Source: a candidate division CSSED10-310 bacterium (GTDB lineage: Bacteria > CSSED10-310 > JAFGDC01). Taken from it: 14,035 bases of DNA. Below the pieces are notes generated by a model that worked only from the letters and a program-made list of their open reading frames with translations, ran no database searches and was not told where the DNA came from. Location: contig JAFGDC010000337.1 of NCBI GenBank assembly GCA_016932295.1, forward strand, positions 1 through 14,035, in the 5' to 3' direction. Each line of letters begins with the position of its first letter. Positions within the stretch are counted from its first letter, which is position 1. A program made the translations under genes and the position numbers. Of the stretch, positions 1 to 14,035 are shown piece after piece.

Positions 1-2
1 GA

Positions 3-323
3 GGCAATCGTGATGTCAAGGTGGATGCGAAGACCCTAACCACCATTCTGTTCGGCCGCACCCCGATCGATCTCTCCGCAGTGGAACAACTGGTGGATGT
101 CAGTCAGACCCGGGCCGTCGCCCAGGCCATCATCCGGTACATGACCGGGTATGCGGAGCAGCATGCCACGCTGAGGGAGGGCCTGGAAGCGATGGATGGC
201 GCCATCGATGCGCAGGGACTGGATGCGCTGACGGCATATTCCACCGGCAATCTGGCACGTCCCAGGGTGTTCGAAATCGCCGCGGCGATCAATCGCCTGC
301 GAGGATTTCGAACATTGCAGTAG
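3..323 (+). CDS. ABC-ATPase domain protein (PF09818-like), C-terminal end only
   Basis: The reading frame is open from the left edge of the window to a TAG at 321-323, so this is the last ~106 residues of a longer protein. A GTG at 21 would give a 100-residue ORF but has no convincing ribosome site, so I treat the gene as truncated by the window. Visible landmarks are FGRTPIDLSAVEQLVD followed by SQTRAVAQAI, and near the end LARPRVFEIAAAINRLR. From memory these match the conserved C-terminus of the predicted 'ATPase of the ABC class' family, which has a single large P-loop protein of about 550-600 residues. Its Walker motifs would lie outside the window. The cellular role of that family is poorly known. 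The assignment rests on recalled family sequence, not on a search. A weak hairpin follows the stop codon. Confidence 0.7.
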   Translation, partial: GNRDVKVDAKTLTTILFGRTPIDLSAVEQLVDVSQTRAVAQAIIRYMTGYAEQHATLREGLEAMDGAIDAQGLDALTAYSTGNLARPRVFEIAAAINRLRGFRTLQ

Positions 324-646
324 CTTTCAGGCGACCGGATCGCACCCGCCTGTTGCCACGCCTCCCGGATGCTCCGGATGGAATATGAGGATTCCATGAG
401 CCATGCCGCGCGGATCGAGATCACTGTGAAGCGTCGCGACCGTACCGGGATCGAGAACCCTGAAAACGTGCCATTCAACCCGGCTGGTGCTTCCGGAGAG
501 CCGATGAAGAGTCGGAAGGATGGATGGCTTCTCGCCGGGGGAAAGATACACCATGGAACTGGACAAGCACCGGACAATCCCGTACATTTGCCTATGAGCA
601 GAGAACAACATGAGTAAGGTTCATACAGGGTGAGGTTGAGGTAAAT
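324..646. other. Intergenic region without a convincing gene
   Basis: Between the ABC-ATPase stop and the GntR gene I see no credible gene. Overlapping short ORFs exist on both strands (for example 369-617 plus and 327-611 minus). None has a good ribosome site or a recognisable motif. The interval presumably holds the promoter and operator of the GntR gene, but I could not identify a clear -35/-10 pair or palindromic operator. Confidence 0.5.
328..352 (+). terminator. Weak hairpin just after the ABC-ATPase stop
   Basis: CAGGCG (328-333) pairs with CGCCTG (347-352), a 6-bp stem with a 13-nt loop, starting 5 bp after the TAG. It is followed by TTGCC and not a T run, so it is at best a poor intrinsic terminator. 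Confidence 0.3.
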
Positions 647-1369
647 ATGACGGACAGAAAAGCGGATAAAAAGCTTCGTATTGCAGATACTATCACTGAA
701 GATTTATTGGCGAAGATACTGGGCGGGGAAATCAAACCGGGTGACAAGCTGGCTCCGGAGCGTGAATTGGCGGTGATCTACAACACAAACCGCAATACAC
801 TCCGGGAGGCTATCAGGAATCTCCAGACCTTGAACCTGCTGGATGTTCGGCACGGTGATGGACTGCGTATCAAGGACTTCCGGACGGCGGGGGAATTGCA
901 CCTCCTGCCGCAGTATTTTAAACACTGTGTCAATGAAAATGAGCGGCTTGCCGTATTTGAAGAGGTACTCAGCTTCCGTAAAACAATGTTGATCGAACTC
1001 GTGGGTGAAGTTGCCAGCAACCGGTCCCAGGAGGATCTCGCCGCCTTGAAACGAATCATAGATCACCAGCACTCGCAATCAGGTGATCCCGGCAAGATGC
1101 TGTTGTCGGACGTTGAATTCAACAAGATCCTGGTCCGCGCCTCCCACAACCAGACCGCCTACTGGATTTTCAATACGCTGGTGAAGCTGTACCAGGAAAT
1201 CATCGCTGATTTTTCATCGTTGGGCCTGATCAGTAACAACTACCTGGATTTTCTTGACAAACTCTACGATGCGATCAGGACTCGTGATGCTAAAACCGCA
1301 AGGTCCGTGATTGAGCAGCATTTGATCAGCAGCGACAAGATGGTCCTGACCATGCTGCGGGTGCTCTGA
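647..1369 (+). CDS. GntR-family transcriptional regulator with FCD-type ligand domain
   Basis: A 240-residue protein of typical FadR/FCD-regulator length. Residues ~11-77 form the GntR winged helix: an IKPGDKLAPERELA segment, the recognition-helix region NTNRNTLREAIRNLQ, and the wing LLDVRHGDGLRI. Residues ~95-228 are all-helical, as in an FCD ligand-sensing domain, with D155 in DVEFNKIL and H225 in VIEQHL. The usual D-x-x-F-H motif is D-x-x-F-N here, and the middle His is not evident around 198-206, so the metal-binding site of many FCD proteins looks incomplete. E. coli FadR also lacks the metal. The ATG at 647 is preceded by GAGGT at 637-641, supporting this start. The gene stands alone on the plus strand, convergent with the argF operon. 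It could regulate itself or a neighbour. The ligand is unknown. Confidence 0.88.
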   Translation: MTDRKADKKLRIADTITEDLLAKILGGEIKPGDKLAPERELAVIYNTNRNTLREAIRNLQTLNLLDVRHGDGLRIKDFRTAGELHLLPQYFKHCVNENERLAVFEEVLSFRKTMLIELVGEVASNRSQEDLAALKRIIDHQHSQSGDPGKMLLSDVEFNKILVRASHNQTAYWIFNTLVKLYQEIIADFSSLGLISNNYLDFLDKLYDAIRTRDAKTARSVIEQHLISSDKMVLTMLRVL

Positions 1370-1375
1370 GCATTC

Positions 1376-1401
1376 CCCGCCGCAATCAGCCTGGCGGCGG
1401 G
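1376..1401. terminator. GC-rich hairpin between convergent genes
   Basis: CCCGCCGC (1376-1383) and GCGGCGGG (1394-1401) form a perfect 8-bp stem with a 10-nt loop, 7 bp past the GntR stop and about 60 bp past the end of the convergent minus-strand operon. No T tract follows on either strand. It may be a bidirectional terminator or a 3'-end-stabilising hairpin. Confidence 0.4.
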
Positions 1402-1458
1402 TGGCTGTAGCATTGGGGAGAAAGGCTGGCGCCTGAATCGGCCGGCACCGGCTGAAGG

Positions 1459-3174
1459 TCACCTGGAATAAGGGACAAGCCAGAGCGAGGGTGCCTGGAA
1501 TCCCGGAACGCGTCTCAGTTCTCCAGCCAGGATGGCGCTCATTTTGATTGCTGTCACCGGTTCCAGCCACTCCTCATGAAGCACGACGTACCCGATCCCC
1601 AAGCGTTGCAGCGCGACAGCAGATCCTTCCACCGTCATCGTCGGTTCCGATTCCGTGATGCGTTCACGCAGCCATTCTTCCATGCGATACGAACCAGATC
1701 CGGCGGGTGAGGTGAAGTGCGGATCCGCCGCCGTGACAGCAAGGATGAGGGGCACTTCCAACGCCAGCCGCGGATTGAAACCCTTCATATCGGATGCTTC
1801 AGAAATATTGTAGGGGATCGGCCGATGGTGCCTCGTCTGGTAAAATTCATACCAGCCGACCCGATGAAATCTGAACCGAACAGGCAGATCGAGCACGGCG
1901 GTCCGGTCAGGTTGCTCCGCAATCCAATCACAGGCAGGCGGATGCTCCGCACTACTGGTTTTCGGCAGACCTCGCCCACACACAAAGTGATCACCTATCA
2001 GCAGAAAGAACAGGACAGCGAGTGGCAGGTGTTTCCGGTGCATGGCGCCGATACCGGCCGCGCATGGTGGTACCAGAGCCAGCATGGCGCCTGCCTGGAA
2101 ACGGAATGCGTTACGGAAGAATGACAGGGGTGGGATCAATGCCATGAGGTCATATGGCATGGGAAGATCCATGACCAGGGCCGAACGCCAGTAGAGGGCG
2201 GGTCCCATGGACAGGATCAGCAGGCTCAGGGCGGCCGCCCACCAGCGCCACATCCGCCGCTCCACTGTCGCGCCGATCAGGGCGAGGGCACAGAATGCCA
2301 ACCCGATATATGGAGGCCTTGGGACCGGCGCAGCGGTATCATGAAACGGAACGAAGTATTCCAGTCCGGTGACATCGAAGGGTTCGAGGTGATTCTCGAG
2401 ACGTGAAGCCAGGCGCAATTCCGTGCCGTCGCGCATGGCGTGGAGATATATAAACTGGACGGGCGCGGTCAGGATGACGGCGGTGAAAGCACTCAAAGCG
2501 AGCAGCCTGAAGTTGCGCCGTGGCGCCGATGCGCGCACGGCTTGGGTACCGCAGATGATGCCGGCCAGGATCACCAGTTGAAAAGCATGGTAATGACCGG
2601 CAAAAAGCGTCAAAGCCGCCGTGGTCCCGGCCGCCACCGCCATTGTCGGCGATGCTGCCGCCTGGGACCGGATGAGCAACGCCAGGCTGACGGCGATCCA
2701 GCCGAATCCGGTGGCGGATGGCACTCCTTCTTCAATCAGGGCCAGCAAATGGGAACTGGTCATGACCGCGGCGGCAACGATCACGGCGGAGCCCCGGATG
2801 GCTCCGGAAGCCAAGGCCAGGGCAAACGCTCCCACTCCGGCGAGGATGACATGCACACCGATGAGCAGGTTGTAGGCTCTGACCGGCCCGTCCGCCGCGC
2901 CCAGTACCCAGGCCAGCCAACCGTTCAAAGGGTCGGGCAGCATCAATGCACCGCCGTCCGGATAGAACAACAGGGGAGTATGGTAGGGCAGCAACCTGCC
3001 GGCGGACGATTCGCCGGCAAACCACCAGTAACCCCATACCGAATCCAGCAGATCTCCGGTCACATCGCCAACCAGTCGACCTTCGGAATGAGGCAGCAGG
3101 CGGCACAGGACAACCACGACCAGGAGTACCGGTAGCGCGACCTTCCCAAGCCGCGGCGAGGACAAGTGTTTCAT
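1459..3174 (-). CDS. Polytopic membrane protein, probable GT-C-type glycosyltransferase-like
   Basis: A 571-residue protein with about 10-12 hydrophobic segments from residue ~11 to ~397, then a soluble tail of ~175 residues. The architecture resembles GT-C fold lipid-linked sugar transferases or YfhO-like proteins. It has one TM helix (11-27), then a large first external loop with acidic residues (D37, D41, D44 in GDVTGDLLD) and a WGYWWFAGES...PLLFYPDGG region. A late signature LIPPLSFFRNAFRFQAG (346-362) is common near the end of the membrane part of such proteins. The exact reaction cannot be read from sequence, and a non-catalytic role is possible. The start ATG lies 15 bp after the argF stop, with GGAG just upstream, so it is the last gene of the argF operon. 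No transporter signature is seen. Confidence 0.65.
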   Translation of the reverse strand: MKHLSSPRLGKVALPVLLVVVVLCRLLPHSEGRLVGDVTGDLLDSVWGYWWFAGESSAGRLLPYHTPLLFYPDGGALMLPDPLNGWLAWVLGAADGPVRAYNLLIGVHVILAGVGAFALALASGAIRGSAVIVAAAVMTSSHLLALIEEGVPSATGFGWIAVSLALLIRSQAAASPTMAVAAGTTAALTLFAGHYHAFQLVILAGIICGTQAVRASAPRRNFRLLALSAFTAVILTAPVQFIYLHAMRDGTELRLASRLENHLEPFDVTGLEYFVPFHDTAAPVPRPPYIGLAFCALALIGATVERRMWRWWAAALSLLILSMGPALYWRSALVMDLPMPYDLMALIPPLSFFRNAFRFQAGAMLALVPPCAAGIGAMHRKHLPLAVLFFLLIGDHFVCGRGLPKTSSAEHPPACDWIAEQPDRTAVLDLPVRFRFHRVGWYEFYQTRHHRPIPYNISEASDMKGFNPRLALEVPLILAVTAADPHFTSPAGSGSYRMEEWLRERITESEPTMTVEGSAVALQRLGIGYVVLHEEWLEPVTAIKMSAILAGELRRVPGFQAPSLWLVPYSR

Positions 3175-3189
3175 CGACTCCGGCAGCGC

Positions 3190-4176
3190 CTAGGCACCTC
3201 CGGCAATGGTGGCCACCATCACCGCCTTGATAGTATGCAGGCGATTCTCGGCTTGATCGAATACTCTGGATCGAGGACCTTCGAAGACCTCGTCGGTAAC
3301 CTCCATGATGTCCGGGTGCGCGGCGGATGTCTTGGTGTCCATGTTATGAAAGCTGGGAAGACAATGCAGGAAGATCGAATCCCGCTTGCCGGTCTTTGCC
3401 ATCATTTCCCCGGTGACCCGATAGGGAGACAGGAGCCGGATACGCTCGGTGATCTTGTCCTCCTCACCCATGGATACCCACACATCAGTATAGATCGCAT
3501 CGGCACCTGCAACTCCCAGATCAATGACATCGGTCACGGTGATACGGGCGCCGGATCGTTCAGCCATGGCTTCTGTGCGCACCATGAGCCCCCCGGCAGG
3601 ATGCAGTTCACGAGGCGCGACAATGCGGAAATCGATACCCAGTTGGGCGGAGATAACCAGCAGGGAGTTGGCCACGTTGTTGCGGCCGTCGCCGACGTAG
3701 GCCAGGCTGAGATCGCTCAGGCGGCCGAAGGCTTCACGCATGGTCATGATATCCGCCAGCGCCTGGGTTGGGTGAAAGGTATCGGTGAGACCGTTCCAGA
3801 CAGGAACGCCGGCATATTCGGCCAGTGTTTCAACAGTCTCATGCCTGAATCCACGAAACTGAATCCCATCGAACATCCGGCCCAGGACCCTGGCGGTGTC
3901 GGCCACGGTTTCCTTTTTTCCGAGTTGGATGTCATCACGTCCGAGATATTCCGGATGCGCCCCTTCATCAGCGGCTGCGGTGACAAAGGCGCAACGAGTC
4001 CTGGTCGAGGGCTTCTCGAAAAGCAACGCGATGTTCTTGTGGGCAAGCCGGTTTCTGAAGACGCCTCTTCGTTTCTCCTCCTTCAGACGGCCGGCCAGAT
4101 CCAGCAGGAAGACGATTTCTTCCGCCGTGAAATCAAGCAATGTCAGGAAATGTCGTGAGTTAAGATCGATGGTCAT
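3190..4176 (-). CDS. argF: Ornithine carbamoyltransferase
   Basis: Transfers the carbamoyl group of carbamoyl phosphate to ornithine, giving citrulline (arginine biosynthesis), or runs in reverse in catabolic enzymes. The 328-residue length is normal. All diagnostic motifs are present: the carbamoyl-phosphate loop STRTR (57-61) within FEKPSTRTRCAF, HPTQ (135-138), the ornithine-specific SMGEE (235-239) within DVWVSMGEED, and the catalytic HCLP (271-274). The SMG loop argues against putrescine or aspartate carbamoyltransferase. The start ATG overlaps the stop of the upstream gene (ATGA, 4 bp) and has AAGGAG 8 nt upstream, so translation is probably coupled. No other arginine or deiminase-pathway gene is in the window, so anabolic versus catabolic role is undecided. 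The neighbours, two proteasome-like proteins and a membrane protein, are not the usual arg gene partners. Confidence 0.96.
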   Translation of the reverse strand: MTIDLNSRHFLTLLDFTAEEIVFLLDLAGRLKEEKRRGVFRNRLAHKNIALLFEKPSTRTRCAFVTAAADEGAHPEYLGRDDIQLGKKETVADTARVLGRMFDGIQFRGFRHETVETLAEYAGVPVWNGLTDTFHPTQALADIMTMREAFGRLSDLSLAYVGDGRNNVANSLLVISAQLGIDFRIVAPRELHPAGGLMVRTEAMAERSGARITVTDVIDLGVAGADAIYTDVWVSMGEEDKITERIRLLSPYRVTGEMMAKTGKRDSIFLHCLPSFHNMDTKTSAAHPDIMEVTDEVFEGPRSRVFDQAENRLHTIKAVMVATIAGGA

Positions 4177-5252
4177 CGGCCGCTCTCCTTCCCGTCGTCC
4201 TTGTCCAGACTGCTCCTCAACGTATAACCGCGCAGGAACCGAAGGAGCCGATACGTGTCGGAAGCAGCCCGCAGAAAGGCTTCGTTGATCTCGGGAAAAG
4301 ACTTGTCTTTGAATACCAGGTCCTCGATCAGTTCGTAGGCATTCTCCCGTGAAACCAGACCTTCATTCTTGGCGCTCTCTATCTCGAAGGCCAGGCGCGA
4401 ACGCCTGTCGAATAGTTCTTTCACCCGCAGATCGGGATCATCCTGCAATCCGTTGAAGTAGATGATCTTGGGATAACCACCGACGCCCGCGGTCATGCGG
4501 TAGGCGTGGGTCAAGCCGCGCAACATGGTCATGACCGCCTCGACCCGGTCGATGCGACAGCGGCGCTCCTGCTTGCTGCGCGCAACGGTATAATCGCAAT
4601 ACACCAAGTCGCAGGTATCGCGGCCCGAACCCTGTGCGAGGAAAATTTCCTGGACTTCTTCGCACACCGGCATCCTGGTGGTCATGTAAAAAATCCGGAA
4701 TCCCTCATCGGGATGGTAACCGGCCAGTACCTGTGAATTTCCATAAATGCCTTTCACATCCGCGGGCATACCGTCGAAGGTCATGTAGTTGCAGCCCTTG
4801 CCGATGGTGGCGGCATCGGCGATCTCATAATGCGCGCCGGCTCGCTCATAGTAGCCAGCCACAAGATCGTCACCAGTGAATCCGTACCTGCCTCGCAGCA
4901 TGTCATCGACATGCACTCGCTTGACCCGGGTGATCACCTCGAAGGACAGCAATGCCGCTTCCTCGACCCCCATAAACACCGGCGGCATCCCGTCGTGTTT
5001 CTTGCATTCAAGCTCGTAGTTCCTGGTAATTTGCTTTTCAGTCTGGTCGATAAACTCATCGCCGATACTTGATGTGCCCGTGGTTCCCATGAACAACACG
5101 AGACCTTGCTCGTGCTGAATCTGCCGGTTCACCACCGAGCGGATCTTTTCCGGTGTGTAGAAGATCATCCATTCCGGATTCCAGTAACGAGCCTCGTCAC
5201 AGATGCACAACCCGGAATCACGATCGATACGCATAGCATTGATGGAAGTCAT
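4173..5252 (-). CDS. Proteasome/HslV-like Ntn-hydrolase, putative active subunit
   Basis: A 359-residue protein with no assigned name known to me. The landmarks match the proteasome beta/HslV fold in order. T2 directly follows the start Met and would become N-terminal after Met removal, as in HslV. D19 lies in LCICDEAR and K36 in TPEKIRSV, close to the Thr1/Asp17/Lys33 triad. A Gly-rich turn GTTGTSS (56-62) is followed by a helix. G-S-G (208-210) matches the GSG around proteasome Ser129, and GVGGYPKIIYFNG (256-268) matches the late SGG-strand. Insertion at about 85-170 and a predicted helical C-terminal extension (270-345) make it much longer than HslV (~175). The start is firm: ATGA overlap with the upstream gene's stop and AAGGGGGG at 5260-5267. 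It is paralogous to the upstream gene. Substrate and partner ATPase are unknown. Fold assignment is by eye, so another Ntn-hydrolase family is possible. Confidence 0.72.
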   Translation of the reverse strand: MTSINAMRIDRDSGLCICDEARYWNPEWMIFYTPEKIRSVVNRQIQHEQGLVLFMGTTGTSSIGDEFIDQTEKQITRNYELECKKHDGMPPVFMGVEEAALLSFEVITRVKRVHVDDMLRGRYGFTGDDLVAGYYERAGAHYEIADAATIGKGCNYMTFDGMPADVKGIYGNSQVLAGYHPDEGFRIFYMTTRMPVCEEVQEIFLAQGSGRDTCDLVYCDYTVARSKQERRCRIDRVEAVMTMLRGLTHAYRMTAGVGGYPKIIYFNGLQDDPDLRVKELFDRRSRLAFEIESAKNEGLVSRENAYELIEDLVFKDKSFPEINEAFLRAASDTYRLLRFLRGYTLRSSLDKDDGKESGR

Positions 5253-6352
5253 GACAAGGCCCCCCTTGTGAACTCCTCGATCACCTTGACATGGTCGTCG
5301 TCCAACTCCACCTTGATGGTGTCGGTATCTCCCAGCTTGTAATTGCGGAGCAGGAAATGGAGCCTCGTCAGATCATTGACGCTCCCCAGGAAGTTCTTCT
5401 CCGTTTCTTGCAGGGAAGTGGTTCCAGTGACAATCTCCTCCATCAAGGCGCACGCCTTGCTCTTCTCGAGCAGCTCCGCCTTGCAGGCGCGGACCACCTC
5501 AGTGGCCAGCCTTGCCCTGTGGTCAACCAGTTCGAAAACCTGTTCCGCACGGGTCGCGCCACGGCGATTCAGCAGGATGAGATTGAGATTACCGCCGACT
5601 TCCTTGAAATGATCAGCGGCCGTGACCGCGGATTCGAACAACTCGAGAATGCCTTCACCGATCCCGTATCCGGCTTTTCTGACCTTGAACACCTTGGTTC
5701 CGAAATCCTGACCGAGAACCAGTCCGGATGCATACTTGCCGGCGCCGATGGCTTCGAATCCCTCGTGGATGTACCCCATCACCCAGTTTTCGATGCTCAG
5801 GTGATATGCGGTGATCCCGTAGGTCTCATCGAAACCGAAGATAACGGCCTTGGATTCCATCGCCGCTTTGAGAAGCGCATCCGCCTTTTCCCCGGATGCG
5901 ATACCGGTGGCATTCTCTTTTATCTTTTCGTTTTTTATCTCGATTTTTTTACCGTTCACCAGGTAATAACCGCGATTGAGATCATCGCTCGAGAAGCCGA
6001 AGAAAAACGTGAGCTTCTGATCGATCCGGCGACGTATGGCGGTCTGGAGATTCTTGAAGGCGATCGTGGCAATGTCCTTGATCAGGGTGGGCTGGCCGCC
6101 TTCCACCTTCTTCTCGCTGTACAATCTGGCCAAGGCACGGCGGGTATCCCGAACCACCTCATGATGGACCGAAGGGTAGCCCACTCCGCCGTACACCACC
6201 TCCATCTTCCAATCCCTCGCCATGTTCTCCTGGAGAAGCAGTTGCAGATTATCCGCGTAGAGACGTTTGCGAAAATGAACATTCCAGAACTCTTCGTCGC
6301 TGATGATCGCCCCGGTATCGGGACTGAACTGCAACAGGTTGACAAGTGCCAT
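5249..6352 (-). CDS. Proteasome/HslV-like paralog, putative non-catalytic subunit
   Basis: A 367-residue paralog of the downstream gene. The two align from the first residue (ALVNLLQFSPDTGAIISDEE against TSINAMRIDRDSGLCICDEA) through the Gly turn (YGGVGYPS, 54-61), the GSG-equivalent (G203-A204-G205), the late strand VGGNLNLILLNRRG (252-265) and the C-terminal helices ending FLLRNYKL (333-340). Catalytic positions differ: residue 2 is Ala, the Lys position is Leu (L36), and GSG is GAG; only D19 is kept. It therefore looks inactive, as alpha or non-catalytic beta subunits are. I chose ATG 6352 over an upstream in-frame ATG at 6439 because GGAGGG (6360-6365) lies 7 nt before it and because homology with the paralog begins exactly there. 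It is the first gene of the operon and its stop overlaps the next start (ATGA). Confidence 0.7.
   Translation of the reverse strand: MALVNLLQFSPDTGAIISDEEFWNVHFRKRLYADNLQLLLQENMARDWKMEVVYGGVGYPSVHHEVVRDTRRALARLYSEKKVEGGQPTLIKDIATIAFKNLQTAIRRRIDQKLTFFFGFSSDDLNRGYYLVNGKKIEIKNEKIKENATGIASGEKADALLKAAMESKAVIFGFDETYGITAYHLSIENWVMGYIHEGFEAIGAGKYASGLVLGQDFGTKVFKVRKAGYGIGEGILELFESAVTAADHFKEVGGNLNLILLNRRGATRAEQVFELVDHRARLATEVVRACKAELLEKSKACALMEEIVTGTTSLQETEKNFLGSVNDLTRLHFLLRNYKLGDTDTIKVELDDDHVKVIEEFTRGALS
5260..5267 (-). promoter_or_regulatory. Ribosome binding site fixing the Thr-2 start
   Basis: On the minus strand AAGGGGGG lies 7 nt before the ATG at 5252. Together with the ATGA overlap, it fixes the start so that Thr is the second codon, which matters for the Ntn-hydrolase interpretation. 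Confidence 0.75.
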
Positions 6353-6359
6353 GACCACG

Positions 6360-6365
6360 CCCTCC
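6360..6365 (-). promoter_or_regulatory. Ribosome binding site deciding the operon's first start
   Basis: GGAGGG on the minus strand, 7 nt upstream of ATG 6352. The alternative ATG at 6439 has no comparable site, and its 29 extra residues have no counterpart in the paralog. Confidence 0.8.
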
Positions 6366-6619
6366 ATTTCAAATGGCTGTGACGACAGACCGCTTCCACA
6401 CAAGTACTGGACTTTATCCAAAAGGATCAGGCAAGGCAACGAAGAAGTGCCGCCTGGTCCCGTGAGAACACACCGGAAGATCCCTCGGCGAGTCGATGAT
6501 CGGCGGCCGGCAGGGACCAGTGGATCCGGGTGATTCCGTCATTGGCATGTTTCCACGGGAAGGTTGATACCGCTGTCCCGGAAACGGGCTCCGGTATTTC
6601 GCAGGCCGGTGAAGGGAGA

Positions 6620-6651
6620 TGACAAGAAAAGGGCGCACCAGAGTGCGCCCT
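6620..6651 (-). terminator. Intrinsic terminator of the thioester surface protein gene
   Basis: Read on the minus strand, AGGGCGCAC (6651-6643) pairs with GTGCGCCCT (6638-6630): a 9-bp GC-rich stem with a 4-nt loop followed by TTTTCTTGTC. It begins 21 bp past the stop codon. It separates this gene from the same-strand operon downstream. Confidence 0.88.
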
Positions 6652-6672
6652 CGCAATCATTCAGTCAGATGA

Positions 6673-8550
6673 TCAACGACGCTTGCGCAGGAATCCCATG
6701 AGCATGCCGCCAAGTACAATGGCCAGCAGTCCGACGCCGGCCGGTGAGGTGGCCGGAATGGGAGGCCGGGTGGGAGTCCTGGTGGGACGTGGCGTAAGGG
6801 TGATGGTGGGACTTGGCGTCAGGGTGGGTGTATAGATGGTGGGGGTGGCGGTGGGAGAAGGCGTAACCGTGGGGGTGAAGCTGTAGAGGGGTTGGGTCGG
6901 GGTCAGGGTGGGGCTGAGTGTCGCCGTCCAGTTCGGAGTTGGTGTGGCTGTGTATCCCGGACCGGAGGTGATGGCCGAAGTGGGCGTAAGGGTGGGAGGA
7001 ACCTGGGTGTAGAACGGTGTAAATGTGGCGCTTGGCGCGGGGGAACTCTCCGGAGTCGGGAACGGTGTGGCTTCCTGCCGGTTGCCGTATTGGATGGTGT
7101 ACAGTCCGGTCGTCACCACGTTGAGCGGAACATCCGTACCGGTGGTGCACGTCCAGCCGGGCTGTACCGCTTCCCGCAAAGTATATGCACCGGCCGGGAA
7201 GTCGGTGAAAGCGATGTGACCATTGGCGGTCCTGCCGCTGGCCTGGACGCTGCTGTCGGATCGATACAGCGAGAACCACCAGCCATCCATCAGCTCATCG
7301 CCGGTATCCTTGATACCGTTGCCGTTGTGGTCGTTGAACTTCTCCACGACGATGGCCGGCAGTTTGACATTACCGAAGTTGAGGATGGCGGATACGCCGG
7401 AGGTCAGCGTGACCAGTTGCTGCAGTGGCAGTGTATTGTACCAGCCGCTTTGCAGGGTTTCCTCGACGATGAAGTCACCCGAGGAGAGCCCGGAGAAAAC
7501 AGCGTTGCCGTCGGAATTGGTGACAGCGGTGTTGATGGGAAGTCCGCCCTGGTACAAGGTCATGGTCCAGTTGGCCAGATTATCTTCATTGTCCTGTTGG
7601 ATACCGTCCATGTTGGTATCATAGAACTTATGGGCGATGATCGAACCGGGATGGAGGAACTCACCAGTGACCTGGGCAAACACCGAGCCGGTCACCGATT
7701 CGGCCAGCACCAGCTTCTGCTTGTTCTCGACGATGGGGATGAACATGATACCCGCGGGCAACTGGAACGATGCCTCACCCTCGATGTAGGCGACGTGTGG
7801 GTCTGCCGGGGTTGGGTTGGTGAGCGTAAAGGTGGCTTCGCCATCCTCGTTGGTGACAACCGATGTACTGCTGAGGATGCCGAAGGTTGTGGTGAGATTG
7901 ATGGTGAGATCAGGCACCGGAGCGCCATCCTGGGTGGCCGTCACGGTATAGGTGAGGACGGCATTCGGCACGGTGGCGTAGTTGTAGGCCGGGGAAATCG
8001 TGATGTCCGGAGGATCCTGCTCGATGAAACAGGGATCCGGCACCATGTTGATGATTTCCTGGGTTCTATTCCTGATGGCGGAATAGGACGTGCTGACATG
8101 AAAACCATCGGCGAAGTACCAGACGGCGGCTTGCCGGGCCGCGGCTTCCGTATCGGTGACGTTCGGATCCGGCGGTAATGCGTTCAGCAGCCATGTCACC
8201 TCGCAAGGTGTTGGTCCAGCGCTGGTGAACTGGTCACCGATCTGGATCGGATGGTGAATGTCAACACAGAACGCCATGACCTGTGGCGTACTGCCGGGCG
8301 GAATGCTGACCTTGAGGATGCCTCCCCAGACCGATTTGGTCTCACCGGAATCGAAGTAGCCGGAAAATTTCGCTCCGCGCCCCGTTCCGTCCAGCCGGCC
8401 GGTCTCCTGATTCATATCCTCCGGCAATTTGGCGAGCAGTTGTCCTTCCCCGGTCAGAGACACCTTCGGTTGCTGATCGAAGGCTGCAAATGCGCCCGGA
8501 ATCAGCAACAATGTGATGATCCCCATTAGCATAACAGATGTTTTTCTCAT
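6673..8550 (-). CDS. Cys-Gln thioester-domain surface protein with SdrD-B-like repeats and C-terminal anchor
   Basis: A 625-residue exported protein. Signal peptide 1-23 ends at GAFA|AF. Residues ~60-175 resemble thioester domains (TED): C95 in MAFCVDIHH and Q140 in ARQAAVWYFADG are the expected pair forming an internal thioester, which in known TED adhesins binds covalently to host amines. An Ig-like, Big-type segment follows (~185-275). Then come two SdrD-B/Cna-B-like modules with Asp-rich calcium-type loops (DTNMDGIQQDNED, 311-323; NDHNGNGIKDTGDE, 406-419). A Thr/Pro-rich linker spans ~494-596. The tail is PPIPATSPAG, a hydrophobic helix 605-620 and RKRR, resembling IPTL/PEP-CTERM sorting signals. 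The start is supported by GGGAGGA 9 nt upstream. It has its own terminator and is divergent from the papain-like gene with the same kind of tail. Likely an adhesin; the ligand is unknown. Confidence 0.82.
   Translation of the reverse strand: MRKTSVMLMGIITLLLIPGAFAAFDQQPKVSLTGEGQLLAKLPEDMNQETGRLDGTGRGAKFSGYFDSGETKSVWGGILKVSIPPGSTPQVMAFCVDIHHPIQIGDQFTSAGPTPCEVTWLLNALPPDPNVTDTEAAARQAAVWYFADGFHVSTSYSAIRNRTQEIINMVPDPCFIEQDPPDITISPAYNYATVPNAVLTYTVTATQDGAPVPDLTINLTTTFGILSSTSVVTNEDGEATFTLTNPTPADPHVAYIEGEASFQLPAGIMFIPIVENKQKLVLAESVTGSVFAQVTGEFLHPGSIIAHKFYDTNMDGIQQDNEDNLANWTMTLYQGGLPINTAVTNSDGNAVFSGLSSGDFIVEETLQSGWYNTLPLQQLVTLTSGVSAILNFGNVKLPAIVVEKFNDHNGNGIKDTGDELMDGWWFSLYRSDSSVQASGRTANGHIAFTDFPAGAYTLREAVQPGWTCTTGTDVPLNVVTTGLYTIQYGNRQEATPFPTPESSPAPSATFTPFYTQVPPTLTPTSAITSGPGYTATPTPNWTATLSPTLTPTQPLYSFTPTVTPSPTATPTIYTPTLTPSPTITLTPRPTRTPTRPPIPATSPAGVGLLAIVLGGMLMGFLRKRR
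6763..7071 (-). repeat. Thr/Pro-rich low-complexity linker (TPT repeats)
   Basis: Codons for residues ~494-596 of the thioester protein, dominated by imperfect TPT, LTPT and SPT units. It is probably an extended, possibly glycosylated stalk. It resembles the linker at 11520-11745 in composition and position just before the C-terminal tail. Confidence 0.75.
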
Positions 8551-8845
8551 TTCAGCTCGTCCTCCCTATTGCGAACCACATCTCGAGCTCCGATGCTCTC
8601 TCCCTGAATTGTTTCCGAGATCGATAATCCCTCACGCCGGCGCGCTCCGGCCATCGAAGGGAAAAATAAAAAAACAGAAAAAATACGTTTCGACGAGCAA
8701 CAGCAGACTCGTCGTGTGTCCATGATCACTCACTCCCGAACATGGCGCCCATCGTCCCCTCCGGGCTTTGTTCTTTGCTATCAATAAGTTACCATCTCCC
8801 TTGCTGGTGCAGCCTCGCCTTAACACACCATCGGAATTCGTCTCT

Positions 8846-8873
8846 ATTATAATGCACATTGTCAAAGTTGCAA
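8846..8873 (-). promoter_or_regulatory. Candidate promoter for the thioester protein gene
   Basis: On the minus strand TTGCAA (8873-8868), a 16-bp spacer and TATAAT (8851-8846). It would give a leader of ~290 nt. The -10 element also reads TATAAT on the plus strand (8848-8853), but no good plus-strand -35 sits at the right distance; TTAACA at 8820-8825 is 22 bp away. Confidence 0.35.
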
Positions 8874-9197
8874 GTTTTTCAAAAAGAAATCCGCATTTTT
8901 ACTCACCGACCAGGATGAACGAAAAGTTACTCCGACGGCTCATTACATTTTCTCTTCTCCCAAACCCTTCCCACCTCCCGGGCTTCGTCCGCGATGTTCT
9001 TTTTTTTTCGCACTCCCAGAAGCTTTCATTTCAAGAAAAACGGGTATTGGAGATGTATTGATGGGCCGTCAGGGAATCTCCGCTGAAATCCCCCCTCAAC
9101 TGACATTTTTTTTCGTTATCCTTTACTTAGCTGAAGAACATTTGTAAAGTGCATGGAGAGATATTGTGGCTTCATTTTTTGCCAATGTTTTTTTCAT

Positions 9198-9203
9198 GGA
9201 GGG
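9198..9203 (+). promoter_or_regulatory. Ribosome binding site selecting a GTG start
   Basis: GGAGGG is 6 nt upstream of the GTG at 9210. The in-frame ATG at 9153 has no such site, and its extra 19 residues would precede an otherwise normal signal peptide. Confidence 0.75.
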
Positions 9204-9209
9204 AACAAG

Positions 9210-11834
9210 GTGATATCGAGCAGTACAACGAATAGAAAGACCTTCATGCCGGTCCTCTTGGCCAGCTTGATCTGGGTGGTCTTCGCATGCTGCATTTCAT
9301 GGCTGCCCGTGCACCCGGTCGCCGTCGCCGGCGACCTGCCGACGGGTCAGACCGGCGCCGTCGAGTCCAGTCAATGGTCCGTCTCGACAGAGGACAGCCG
9401 CATCGCCGCGATCAAGGCGGAAACCCGGTTCAGGATCGATCGCCTGTCACTCTCTCCAAGCATGGTCAAGAATCCTGTCGCGGTAGTCGAGTCGAATCAG
9501 ACGATCAAGCGCATCAAGCAGGAAACGGAAATCGAGATTTTGGAGGAGTATCTGGAGCGAGCGATGGCGAGCGGAGACACCGAGTGGGCGGAGGAATTGT
9601 TATCGCGCATCGAGATCGTCACCGGTACGCAGAGCGCTGCGCCGGCAAGGGCGGCGGTTTCCGTTTTCAACGCATCTGAAGCACAGAAAGATGCCGCTGT
9701 TTCACGATCCATGTTCACCTGGCTGGATTACGCGGCTCTGAACTGGATGACGCCGGTGAAGGAGCAGGGATATGACGACTCCTGGGCGTTCGCGGTATTG
9801 GGCGCCACCGAGGCCATTTACAAGATCACCGCCGGGAACGGCACGGTGACGCCGGATCTCTCCGAGCAATACATGGTGAGCTGCCTTATGGGGCACGGCA
9901 ACTACGTGCCCCTCTCCGATGCGCTGAGCCTGCTGAAAAATTACGGCATCACTGATGAGTGCTGCTTCCCTTATGATGGATCGTTACCGGTGCCCGCCTG
10001 TTCAGGCAACGCCTGCGGCGACGCCAACAACCGCCTTCATTCCATCGATTTGTATGGGGCGGTGAGTCCAACCGTAGCGGACATAAAGACCGCGCTCCAG
10101 ACTTACGGTCCCCTGCCGACCACCGTCACTGTCAACAGCGATTTCCTCAACTACAGCGGTGGAGTGTTCTCGAGCTGCGCCCGTGGCGATGCCAGGGCTG
10201 TACAGCACGTTGTAATCGTCGGCTGGAATGACGACGATCCCGAGGGAGCCTGCTGGATATGCAAGAATTCCTGGGGTGATGACTGGGGAGAGGACACATA
10301 TGGCGATGCCGGCGAACGCGGTTATTTCCGAATCGCTCTGGGCAGTGACTGTTCCGGAATCGAGAGTTCGGTCTATTTCATCGATGGTAAAACCCTTCCG
10401 GATCTTACCGACAGCACGCCTTCTGGCTGGGACTACCCGATCGTCATGCGTAACGACACCTCCTGCTCCGATCTCTCCTGCCCCGTGCCAGCCACCCTGT
10501 CCGGCAACACCATCTCCTCGTACTTCAGTGTCGCCACGCACAACTCCGGTACCATCATCGCTCAGCAGGCTTACCAGAGACTGTACATCGACGACGAGTA
10601 TATCCGCTGGTTTTCCTGGAGTTATGTAGGTTCCGGCAGCACCAACAACTACGTCAACCTCGGCCCTCACATGGTCAAGGGCGGGCGGCATACCATGCGG
10701 GTTTTTTACGACGATCCGGCCCGTTGCGTTCCTCCTCCGGCGGACGGCACCGTCTGGGAGGTGGATGAATCCGACGGCAGCAACAACTACCGCCGGCAGT
10801 ACATCTGGAGTCCCCTGCCTCTGACCGTCGATTCCCCTGAATATCGAACCAGTCCGCCCAATGAGTGGACCGGGGGCACCTATCGTAACTGCGATGGATT
10901 CTCCTTCACCACGCCGGCAATCACCGGCTTCGCCGCTGGGGTGGGTATGCTCAGCCCTAACTACCTGGCTGACTACGATCTCTACGGTTTCGACGATTAC
11001 AGCGGCGCCGAAGCAGGTTTCGCCAACGAAGAAATTGCCTCTCTCAGCGGTCCCAATCAATCCGAACTGATCATCTACTGCGGGTATCCAAACCACGGCG
11101 TGACACGCTGGGCCGGGGTCACCAATTCCACCGGCAATGCCAGCAACTTCTACGTCCAGGCCGATGCCTACGATGCCATCCTCGAGACGGAGGACACCCC
11201 TCTTGTCGGCGGTATAGATGTCAACAAGATTTTCGACATCTATGAAGTAAATCTCGATTCCGGCATACGCTACGTTTTCAATCTTTACGTGACGGATGGC
11301 GATGCCGATATCGGGATCACTCTTTATGGACCAGAGGTTGCGGATACTTATTACGCGAAGGACGATTACATCACAGGCTGTTACGCCGACGATTTCGGCG
11401 ATGGCGACGGCGAAAGTTTCGTCTGGGACTGCACCCAGGCCGGCACCTACATCTTCGCAGTCTGGAAAGTGAACAGCGAGGACTACCAGGATTACTGCAG
11501 CTACACCCTGGCCTTCGCTCCTCCCACGCCAACGCCGACGCTTACTCCCACCAAAACCCCGACACTCACCCCGACGTTCTCCCCCACCTTCTCGCCAACG
11601 CTCACCCCGACACTCTCACCGACCCTCACACCAACCCCAACCGAGGAACCACCCACTCCCACGCCCTCCACGACTCCCACCGTGACCAAGACCGCCACCA
11701 TGACCGTCACTCCCACCATCACCCTCACGCCCACCTTCCCCCCCATCCCAACCACCGCCACCAGCGGTTCAATCGTTCTGCTGGGGCTCCTCACCCTCCT
11801 CGTGCGTTTCTCGATCATTCGCCGGCGGTCGTGA
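9210..11834 (+). CDS. Secreted papain-like (C1A fold) protein with Cys-to-Ser active site and C-terminal anchor
   Basis: 874 residues from the GTG start. The signal peptide ends about AVA40|GD. A charged helical region at ~50-165 may be a propeptide. Residues ~175-385 show the papain landmarks: PVKEQG with Q186 (oxyanion Gln), H333 in VQHVVIVGW and N353 in [10 protein letters not shown]. Where papains have QGxCGSCWAF this protein has QGYDDSWAF, one residue shorter, with S191 directly before the conserved Trp, so both the catalytic Cys and the nearby disulfide Cys are missing. It may be a serine-nucleophile variant, as proposed for Plasmodium SERA proteins, or a pseudoenzyme. Next is a CARDB-like region (~390-520), then an intermediate part and a PPC-like beta domain (~700-790, with [12 protein letters not shown]). 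Last come a TPT-rich linker, [10 protein letters not shown], a hydrophobic helix and RRRS. A strong terminator follows. Confidence 0.82.
11520..11745 (+). repeat. Thr/Pro-rich low-complexity linker (TPT repeats)
   Basis: Imperfect repeats of CTCACCCCGAC-like units encoding TPTLTPT, SPTLTPT and similar. They lie just before the PPIPTT tail of the papain-like protein. Such repeats are prone to copy-number slippage. Confidence 0.75.
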
Positions 11835-11870
11835 TGCCGATCATCACCAAGAACTGAACAGGTACACCAA

Positions 11871-11904
11871 CCAGGGCGGTTCGCATGAACCGCCATGGTT
11901 TTAT
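11871..11904 (+). terminator. Strong intrinsic terminator of the papain-like gene
   Basis: GGCGGTTC (11875-11882) pairs with GAACCGCC (11887-11894) around a GCAT loop. CCA/TGG extends the stem past a 1x1 mismatch, and TTTTATAT follows. It lies about 37 bp after the stop. Confidence 0.88.
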
Positions 11905-12100
11905 ATGCAAGTATCCACTTTAGGGCGTACACGTAATCTTGTACTGTTCGCTGCGAAGCCTTGGCAATCAATGCCTTACCACGGTATTTTCCCATCAAAT
12001 CGATTCGCCGGTCTTGACAGGCACATTGTCCCGTGGTCTGTGCCCTGTGCTCCAAGGACGGAGCGGTAACCCCTCAAATGCGTCTAACAGATCTGTATGA

Positions 12101-12125
12101 CACCCCTCCCAATCGAAGAGGGGTG
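12101..12125. other. Hairpin upstream of the asnS promoter
   Basis: CACCCCTC (12101-12108) and GAGGGGTG (12118-12125) form an 8-bp stem with a 9-nt loop. An outer pair GACACC (12099-12104)/GGTGTC (12130-12135) offers an alternative fold. No T tract follows. It sits about 20 bp before the -35 region, so it is not in the asnS mRNA if the promoter call is right. Confidence 0.4.
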
Positions 12126-12144
12126 ATTTGGTGTCCCCGATATC

Positions 12145-12172
12145 TTGCAGTGGATGAGAATCGCGTTATAAT
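12145..12172 (+). promoter_or_regulatory. Sigma-70-like promoter of asnS
   Basis: Perfect TATAAT at 12167-12172, with TTGCAG at 12145-12150 and 16-bp spacing. Transcription would begin near 12179, leaving a ~30-nt leader that includes the ribosome site GAGAGGA before ATG 12210. Confidence 0.62.
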
Positions 12173-12209
12173 GCATCGCATTGTTGAACCGTTATCGAGA
12201 GGATACATC

Positions 12210-13589
12210 ATGAAAATAAAACAGATTCTGAATTCCGAGGAAGCCGGCGTCCGGATAGTCGTGAAGGGATGGATACGGACCAAGCGATCATCCAAAAACA
12301 TCACGTTCATCGAATTAAATGACGGTTCCACCATCAATAACCTCCAGGTGATCGCCGAATCAGAGAGTGGCGAGTTCGCCGCCGTCGAGAAATTGGGAAC
12401 CGGCGCGGCCGTAGCCATCCACGGGGAACTCAGGGACTCGCCCGGTAAGGGGCAACGCTTTGAACTCAAAGCCTCCAGGATAGAGGTGATAGGCGAATCC
12501 GATCCCGCTTCGTACCCGCTCCAGAAGAAACGCCACTCGTTCGAGTTCCTTCGCCAGATCGCGCACCTGAGACCGCGCACCAACACATTCGGCTGCGTAC
12601 TCCGCGTGAGAAACGCTCTGTCGTATGCCATCCACGAATTTTTCCAGAAACACGGATTCGTCTACATCCACACACCGATAATCACCGGCTCTGATTGTGA
12701 AGGCGCAGGTGAACTGTTCAAAGTAACGACCCTGGACTTGAACCAGCCCCCCAGGAGCCAGGATGGCGGCATCGACTTCGAACAGGATTTCTTCAAACGT
12801 CCCACCTACCTGACGGTCTCGGGACAGCTCGAGGGTGAGTTGTTCGCCCTGGCGCTGGGCGACATCTACACATTCGGACCCACCTTCAGGGCCGAAAACT
12901 CCAATACCACCAGACACCTAGCAGAATTCTGGATGATCGAACCGGAGATGGCCTTCTATGACTTGCGGGACAACATGGATCTGGCCGAATCATTCCTCAA
13001 GGAAATCACCGCCAAGGTGATCGAGCGCTGCCCTGATGATATGACCTTCTTCGATCGGTGGATCGAGAACGGCCTGCTGAATCGACTCCGCGCCGTCCTG
13101 GATGCCCGTTTTATCCGGCTGTCGTACACGGACGCCATGACCATCCTTCAGAACAGCGGCCGGGCATTCGATTACCCCGTGGAATGGGGTTGCGAGCTGC
13201 AGACGGAGCACGAGCGCTACCTTACGGAGCAGCACTTCAAGGGTCCGGTCATCGTGTATGACTATCCGCGGGAGTTCAAGTCATTCTACATGCGAGTGAA
13301 CGACGACGGGAGAACGGTTGCCGCGATGGATGTGCTGGTGCCAAAAATCGGGGAAATCATAGGCGGAAGCCAACGTGAAGAGCGGTTGGGTAAACTCCAG
13401 GAACAGATCGACCTCAAACAGCTCGATATGTCCGACTATCAATGGTACATGGATTCGCGCCGTTTCGGCAGCGTCCCCCATGCGGGATTCGGTCTCGGAT
13501 TCGAACGGATGATGATGTTCATCACAGGCATGAACAACATCAGGGATGTCATTCCACTCCCGAGGTATCCGGGCTGCGCGGAGTTTTGA
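12210..13589 (+). CDS. asnS: Asparaginyl-tRNA synthetase
   Basis: Class IIb aminoacyl-tRNA synthetase charging tRNA-Asn with asparagine in the cytoplasm. It has 459 residues, a normal length for bacterial AsnRS. The N-terminal OB-fold anticodon-binding domain spans ~1-100 ([22 protein letters not shown] region). Class II motif 1 lies around 146-160 with [17 protein letters not shown]. Motif 2 contains [20 protein letters not shown] (222-241). Motif 3 is [20 protein letters not shown] (428-447), ending IPLPRYPG. The pattern [10 protein letters not shown] and the motif 3 tail distinguish it from AspRS. I chose ATG 12210 over the in-frame extension starting at 12033. It has GAGAGGA just upstream, the usual AsnRS N-terminus, and the promoter TATAAT lies inside the extension. 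It is transcribed alone. Confidence 0.96.
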
Positions 13590-13687
13590 AACCGGTCGCC
13601 GGCTCCCCCTGTCCAGCTCGTCCGCGCCTTGATCAGCGCCACATCGGAGAGCTGTAATCGATCCGCTGAACAGGCCATTGCGCGCTC

Positions 13688-13712
13688 AAGCGCCGGCCAA
13701 TCACCGGCGCTT
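13688..13712. terminator. Hairpin between convergent asnS and minus-strand gene
   Basis: AAGCGCCGG (13688-13696) and CCGGCGCTT (13704-13712) form a perfect 9-bp stem with a 7-nt loop. It lies about 100 bp after asnS and 15 bp after the stop of the minus-strand gene. No strong T run follows on either strand, but position and symmetry suggest a bidirectional terminator, mainly for the minus-strand gene. Confidence 0.55.
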
Positions 13713-13726
13713 CGTGCGGACAGACC

Positions 13727-14035
13727 TCAACCGCTGAAACCGAAAGCCACAGAATCAAGATTGCTGATGAGCATCCCGGAAGCGGGATCCAGCAGTGCAC
13801 TCCAGAACTGCACGCCATAAGCTGATCCAGCCCCGGAAGGCCAGGTGAACTCGAGGATGCGGCTCATTTGCCAGCTATACCCCCCGTACACGATCTCCTG
13901 GCTGTCGATTGCCGTGCTCCATCCCGGCCAGAAATAATACCCATCTCCGCCTCCAAGGCTGGTGATATCCAGGATGATATAGGTGTCAGCCGTTCGAGCG
14001 GTCCCGTGGTTCTCAACTTCCAGATCCAGGATGAA
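13727..14035 (-). CDS. C-terminal end of a secreted-protein module (YYFWP...FTWP type), unknown function
   Basis: A minus-strand frame runs open from the right edge to TGA at 13727-13729, giving the last 102 residues of a longer protein. The segment is rich in aromatic residues and beta-strand-like: LDLEVENHGTA, YIILDI, DGYYFWPGWS (31-40), ILEFTWPSG (60-68), YGVQFWSALLDP (73-84), and the end VAFGFSG. Its pattern of a beta sandwich with conserved Trp/Pro resembles C-terminal modules of exported proteins I have seen in uncultured bacteria that carry TPT-linker proteins. I cannot name the family. It lacks the Arg-rich anchor of the other two exported proteins. The real start and any catalytic domain lie outside the window. 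Confidence 0.6.
   Translation of the reverse strand, partial: FILDLEVENHGTARTADTYIILDITSLGGGDGYYFWPGWSTAIDSQEIVYGGYSWQMSRILEFTWPSGAGSAYGVQFWSALLDPASGMLISNLDSVAFGFSG

Follow-up and report, generated by a model that had tools for sequence, protein, structure and literature searches.

The contig JAFGDC010000337.1 of a candidate division CSSED10-310 bacterium (GCA_016932295.1), analysed over positions 1 to 14,035, referred to here as the window, encodes two adjacent proteins, subunits A and B, that probably belong to a two-subunit proteasome-like protease family. An initial annotation made from the sequence alone had proposed a possible Ntn-hydrolase of this kind, and both open reading frames (ORFs) lie where it had placed them, as paralogs with 24% identity (87/361; BLASTP E 2e-27). 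The pair, its landmarks and the gene that follows it are listed in order of transcription.

6360..6365, minus strand: Shine-Dalgarno-like GGAGGG ahead of B (read from the sequence)
5249..6352, minus strand: subunit B, 367 aa, proteasome-fold paralog predicted to lack catalysis, with Ala at position 2, the Asp17 equivalent retained and no Lys at the Lys33 position (ORF, BLASTP, model, alignment)
5260..5267, minus strand: Shine-Dalgarno-like run AAGGGGGG ahead of A (read from the sequence)
5249..5252, minus strand: ATGA, overlap of the B stop and the A start (read from the sequence; suggestive of translational coupling)
4173..5252, minus strand: subunit A, predicted Thr1 Ntn peptidase (T2 after Met removal), 359 aa (ORF, model, alignment)
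5247..5249, minus strand: Thr2 codon in A, predicted nucleophile and Thr1 of the mature chain (ORF, alignment)
5196..5198, minus strand: Asp19 codon in A, equivalent to proteasome Asp17 (ORF, alignment)
5145..5147, minus strand: Lys36 codon in A, equivalent to proteasome Lys33 (ORF, alignment)
3190..4176, minus strand: argF (ornithine carbamoyltransferase), its start overlapping the A stop by 4 bases, 4173-4176 (Pfam/NCBIfam)

The ATGA overlap and both Shine-Dalgarno-like runs are present, and the translational coupling asserted in the initial annotation is what this arrangement would be expected to produce.

The landmarks named for A were all found: T2, D19, K36, G56-S62 (GTTGTSS), G208-S209-G210 and G256-V-G-G259. 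Conservation was assessed after aligning 149 A rows jointly with 76 B rows; rows <320 aa and identical rows had been removed, and of the 150 proteins found for A (query included) the 120 listed were used. Thr2 and Asp19 were each present in all 147 A rows with an N terminus (two of the 149 lack it) and Lys36, G208, S209, G256 and G259 each in 149/149 rows; the initial annotation had named non-conservation of T2, D19 or K36 in orthologs as a ground for rejecting it, and all three are conserved. Position 2 of B is Ala in 48, Ser in 19 and Gly in 8 of 75 rows (Ala in the window), and none of the 75 has Lys at the Lys36 column. The equivalent of Asp19 is kept in 75/75 rows and Ser at the 209 column in 17/76. 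Judged from the alignment, the proteasome triad is retained in A and two of its three residues are gone from B.

AlphaFold2 models of A and B reached predicted local distance difference test scores (pLDDT) of 93.3 (65-row alignment) and 91.1 (40-row alignment), respectively. Among the best 50 Foldseek matches per model, both A and B returned proteasome core subunits (20S, 26S and precursor complexes) and Anbu, with chains of the Anbu structure 5nyw in either set. A search of the A model had been expected to return HslV or proteasome beta subunits first; the proteasome core subunits appeared as foreseen, the remainder of the best 50 being Anbu. Neither BPH nor connectase is named in these PDB lists, a result to which no weight is attached. 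VIA superposed the A model on the Rhodococcus 20S beta chain 1q5q_H (Z 21.5, root-mean-square deviation [rmsd] 2.5, 212 aligned), with residue 2 of the model at residue 1 of the chain, and the B model on 8g6f_M (Z 23.2, rmsd 2.7, 198 aligned). The Ntn-hydrolase fold earlier conjectured for A is thus borne out by prediction as a proteasome beta fold. In the A model, strand 13-18 stops just ahead of Asp19, Lys36 stands immediately before strand 37-39, and the glycine turn leads into a long helix (61-85) followed by a second (96-123). This succession of strands, Asp, Lys, glycine turn and helix is the order found in proteasome beta subunits. Beyond the core, the model has three further helices (302-314, 319-329 and 333-340) and, past the second of the long helices, short elements at 127-170; helices 211-223, 227-231 and 236-253 are closely consecutive. 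The B model opens with a strand at residues 3-8, with no counterpart of helix H0 of the 20S alpha subunit ahead of strand 1. A viral structure library gave a best TMq of 0.42, phage proteasome/HslV-like proteins ranking first.

Neither A nor B exceeded the cut-off of any family in Pfam, NCBIfam, PHROGs or PADLOC; of the pair, P0002 had a sub-threshold match to Pfam PF04414 (E 0.063) and P0001 nothing in the four libraries. The 20S proteasome family PF00227 was not matched over its curated cut-off by either window protein and was reached below threshold by 4/65 A members (best E 0.005), the best A/B place across the 15 genomes described below having an E of 0.003. No A/B place was among the TIGR03692 (HslV) matches at E ≤ 10 in the 17 genomes surveyed for HslV. 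Single-sequence searches of the PDB yielded unrelated chains at E 0.67 or worse, a B profile found unrelated PDB chains only (best E 0.028), and HHalign gave a doubtful match of B to a 23-row profile of HslV and one 20S beta (E 0.019, probability 2.5%). Searches of 5.8 billion proteins, with the window's own protein counted in each result, found 150 proteins when A was the query (120 of them listed) and 59 when B was; a mixed alignment found at least 174 (120 listed, candidates limited to 7,996). None of the matches listed for the A, B and mixed searches carried a precomputed Pfam domain. The few named rows among the matches listed read 'hypothetical protein', from CSSED10-310, Schekmanbacteria, Planctomycetota, Eremiobacteraeota, Firmicutes or a plain 'bacterium', and none of these few was archaeal. 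A mobile-element origin was rejected: none of 50,697 phage records or 72,556 plasmid records matched A at E ≤ 0.1, and none of 52 stretches in viral contigs fitting a pattern encodes a relative.

The pair was present in 7/8 searched genomes of the phylum of G010 (CSSED10-310 with Schekmanbacteria), 4/39 of the phylum of G009 (Muiribacteriota/Wallbacteria), 3/199 sampled genomes of the phylum of G001 (Planctomycetota) and 2/149 of the phylum of G007 (Eremiobacterota), the phyla being assigned by locus titles. A contig scan of genomes identified 29 loci besides the window, and in 29 of the 30, window included, B lies directly upstream of A, so the paired genes that the initial annotation wanted sought in other genomes do recur together. 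Gaps range from -4 to +99 bases with over-long start calls set aside (L024, L025, L029), and a contig end truncates B or A in four loci (L003, L008, L026, L027). L010 has A alone, and L004 has B-A-A', where A' (7267-8343) is a second Thr2-bearing A paralog, third in the tandem and overlapping A by 4 bases. The 15 genomes with these loci contain 36 A and 34 B places, assigned by score and position, A directly following B in 33/36, and carry four pairs (G004, G006), three (G001, G003, G005, G008, G010), two (G002, G007) or one (the other six). In a tree of 26 pairs, A formed one clade and B another (100/100), with the same pair groups in both halves, which indicates that the A/B duplication came first and the copying of pairs later. 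The window pair clustered with those of L001, L002, L004 and L028 (A, 100/100; B, 100/99). Three pair groups, those of L028, L012 and L022, coexist in G010; G003 also has all three (L003, L015, L019). Distances within A and B were strongly correlated in a mirror-tree comparison (r 0.97; 16 of the 26 pairs after removal of identical rows), though this is not taken as proof of contact because shared descent yields the same correlation.

HslU and HslV were surveyed in 17 genomes: the 15 with A/B loci, G215, and G016, which has no A/B. HslV (TIGR03692) was over cut-off in 8/17 and HslU (TIGR00390) in 12/17, leaving four genomes of the CSSED10-310 group (G002, G003, G005, G010) with HslU and no HslV. 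The HslU C-terminus is LS(R/Q/K)Y(I/V)L or MAKYIL in 8/8 HslV genomes and EN(I/V)RKKxKxGF plus at most two residues in 4/4 HslV-less genomes, so that the HslV-docking tail has been replaced. Binding and activation of Leishmania HslV require five of the last six residues of HslU (PMC6429459), and the aromatic residue of the tail matters in other species (PMC4106860). As far as the contigs reach, the four genomes share the order dprA-topA-xerC-hslU-(lipoprotein-like)-dapA-dapB (L087-L090; Pfam for L090 of G010, the rest by inspection, and not every gene on each contig piece). In all four, xerC extends past the start of hslU, whereas in G004, from the same phylum, hslV lies between the two (xerC-hslV-hslU); hslV thus appears to have been lost and not missed through incomplete assembly. 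The four HslU are 61-73% identical to one another, and at only 7 of the 115 columns invariant in the eight HslV genomes is the invariant residue never present in them: two at the tail end, three in RFPIRVEL, P450 and L82 (G010 HslU numbering). Each of the four has two or three A/B pairs, and none has a PF00227 protein over cut-off, which makes A/B their only detected proteasome-fold proteins. G008, a CSSED10-310-group genome that also has A/B, carries on a 4,778-base contig (C231) two neighbouring proteins that exceed the PF00227 cut-off and, by inspection, are 20S beta- and alpha-like (L030 1052-1588 and L041 1501-2040); this couple could be genuine or a binning error.

A and B are thus paralogous neighbours of like predicted fold that are inherited together, with an invariant triad in A that B has lost, and in four genomes hslV is absent and the HslU tail replaced. 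On these findings it is probable that A/B is a two-subunit proteasome-like protease family represented in no searched library, with HslU of the CSSED10-310 group possibly serving as its motor. The initial interpretation as a two-subunit proteasome-like Ntn-hydrolase is supported by the predicted folds, the conserved triad and the B-A pairing. A would be made as Met-Thr-Ser, and removal of Met would bare Thr1, which with the Asp and Lys of T2/D19/K36 may form a proteasome-type Thr1-Lys33-Asp17 centre with no propeptide. B, of the same predicted fold with Thr1 and Lys33 lost, would most likely have a structural role beside A in a mixed ring or double ring, akin to that of the inactive 20S subunits yet reached by a separate duplication. 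The pair seems to have been copied as a unit, giving three or four diverged pairs in some genomes. In the four CSSED10-310-group genomes, where hslV is gone and an intact-looking HslU has a new conserved C-terminal tail, the re-tailed HslU would be most simply explained by docking on an A/B particle, for which the motor may have been borrowed; HslU thus possibly drives A/B there. A more far-reaching version is offered tentatively: an independent active/inactive bacterial two-subunit proteasome lineage, with three or four diverged pairs per cell, would have displaced HslV in the CSSED10-310 group and captured its motor, HslU having exchanged the HslV-docking tail for a new one and now feeding a mixed A/B barrel. 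The evolutionary question of how proteasome cores gain inactive subunits, many paralogs and a motor has been debated chiefly on the examples of 20S and HslUV; a lineage apart from these, in which one partner gene is dead and the pair has duplicated repeatedly, would be an independent case of the same path. If HslV was displaced and HslU captured, a partner swap between two proteasome-fold peptidases has been caught in genomes, and capture of the motor is open to a direct test, since hslV is absent while HslU is kept with a new tail.

Several observations weigh against the two-subunit protease or its HslU motor. HHalign aligned A with the 23-row profile in the GSG region only (E 0.075, probability 0.7%). 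The invariant GxxG of A (256-259) seems to occupy the position of the 20S Asp-x-x-Ser motif, and the active site of A would therefore not be identical to that of 20S; the 19 B rows with Ser2 have, in principle, a possible nucleophile, but one without the lysine. Pairing has exceptions, as 2/36 A have no adjoining B (G006:C281:4981 and G007:C42), 1/36 follows another A (A' in G004), and about 1 kb separates B and A in G215. The A of G007:C42 is a solitary A-type gene (L097 1520-2752) that starts MTVVSAMKF and overlaps the ORF downstream. The neighbours found repeatedly are unrelated genes, and no ORF of the 30 loci, window included, matched the HslU profile at E ≤ 0.01, by which a dedicated AAA+ neighbour was ruled against. 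A Walker A motif occurs in nine ORFs (≥150 aa) across the 30 loci, by inspection five RecN-like, one DnaX-like (beside the L016 pair), one in a kinase-type ORF and two others. Five A/B genomes have no HslU over cut-off (G001, G008, G012, G013, G014) and 7/16 A/B genomes have HslU and HslV together, so HslU is not a general motor of A/B; the tail change, which is confined to four genomes that are related, may go back to a single event.

The likeliest alternative draws on these last points, namely that the A/B particle digests small or unfolded proteins without an AAA+ motor and that HslU with its changed tail acts as a chaperone in its own right or is drifting after the loss of HslV. Motor-free operation has been proposed for the betaproteobacterial proteasome homolog BPH and the free 20S core. 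The lack of HslU- or ClpX-like ORFs near the pairs, the genomes without HslU and those with HslU plus HslV all favour it, and it is rated somewhat less likely than not. It is opposed by the retention of HslU in four of the five HslV-less genomes of the G010 phylum (G002, G003, G005, G008, G010), and drift in particular looks unlikely given the mutual identity of the four HslU, their common tail and the few changed columns.

A could instead be a specific processing enzyme or a connectase-like protein ligase, with B as its regulator and the pair types serving distinct substrates. The extra elements past the second helix and the three C-terminal helices on a proteasome core, the several diverged pairs per genome and the absence of any neighbour suggesting general protein turnover are compatible with this. 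Connectase, which has a proteasome-like Ntn fold like A, is described in PMC8665760 as a monomer without H1/H2 and with an S3/S4 insertion, whereas A has both long helices (61-85 and 96-123), and such a role is considered unlikely.

That survey reports 22 new proteasome homologs, finds no telling genomic context and expects more homologs. PHI, described there as having a helical insertion past H1/H2, is placed among the clusters nearest the proteasome and occurs in archaea and 'other bacteria'. PHI, PMI-3 and PMI-4 resemble A, by description, in a proteasome core with longer insertions past H1/H2; PMI-2 to PMI-6 carry an H3/H4 insertion, of which the secondary structure of the A model shows none. 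The elements at 127-170 fit a PHI-type insertion, likewise read from secondary structure, and by predicted architecture PHI as described is the nearest to A; the A/B family may overlap one of the published homologs. That A/B is simply one of the 22, most likely PHI, with its pairing overlooked, is nonetheless improbable, since A/B remains below the PF00227 cut-off where PHI lies near the proteasome, PHI is also archaeal and none of the few named matches listed for A/B is, and the available part of PMC8665760 mentions no partner gene or paired dead subunit.

Compared with the better-known systems, A/B shares with the 20S proteasome the predicted fold, the order of Thr1/Asp17/Lys33, the GSG and the division into active and inactive subunit types, but differs in scoring below the PF00227 cut-off, in its length of ~350 aa with extra elements and C-terminal helices, in the lack of a propeptide in A and in a B whose chain opens directly with strand 1, the N-terminal helix of alpha subunits being absent. 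HslV/HslU (ClpQ/ClpY) has the same predicted fold and Thr1 centre, with HslU use possible in one group, whereas HslV is a single gene with a core of ~172 aa (against 359 aa for A, which, as earlier noted, is far longer) and is linked to A/B neither by TIGR03692 nor by HHalign outside the GSG stretch. Anbu, with Thr1, Asp17 and Lys32(33) and genes mostly beside those for ATP-grasp, alphaE and transglutaminase proteins (PMC6376114), is alike in predicted fold and Thr/Asp/Lys centre and has no second subunit; none of these three gene types was among the window genes or the ten plus two neighbours annotated elsewhere.

Neighbour annotation covered ten plus two proteins of other loci, and recurring genes were polyprenyl synthetase, SMC/RecN-like, NAD kinase, FtsJ/S4, DXP synthase, RNase Y, TruB, PNPase, M23 peptidase, protein kinase and Kelch-repeat. 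The pair adjoins a cluster of the first six in L005, L008, L012, L013 and L015 (Pfam for L012 only). A large Kelch-repeat family occurs near six pairs (L002, L003, L006, L022, L023, L028; Pfam for L003 and L023 only), its gene lying immediately past A on the opposite strand in L002, L003 and L028. In the window, argF is a possible operon mate of A/B, though tblastn found it in none of the 29 other A/B loci.

The Pfam-matched genes of the window are argF, GntR, a surface protein, a papain-type protease and asnS. The best relatives of its AsnS are in G015 (62%) and in G003 and G010 (61%, partial in G010), several genomes having no full match; this is in keeping with the CSSED10-310 and Schekmanbacteria phylum without proving it. 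The papain-type protease (9153-11834) and the SdrD/SpaA-domain surface protein (6673-8550) both combine a stretch rich in Thr and Pro with a hydrophobic segment and Arg tail at the C-terminus that resemble a sorting signal, and the surface protein has a sub-cut-off IPTL-CTERM match (E 0.07).

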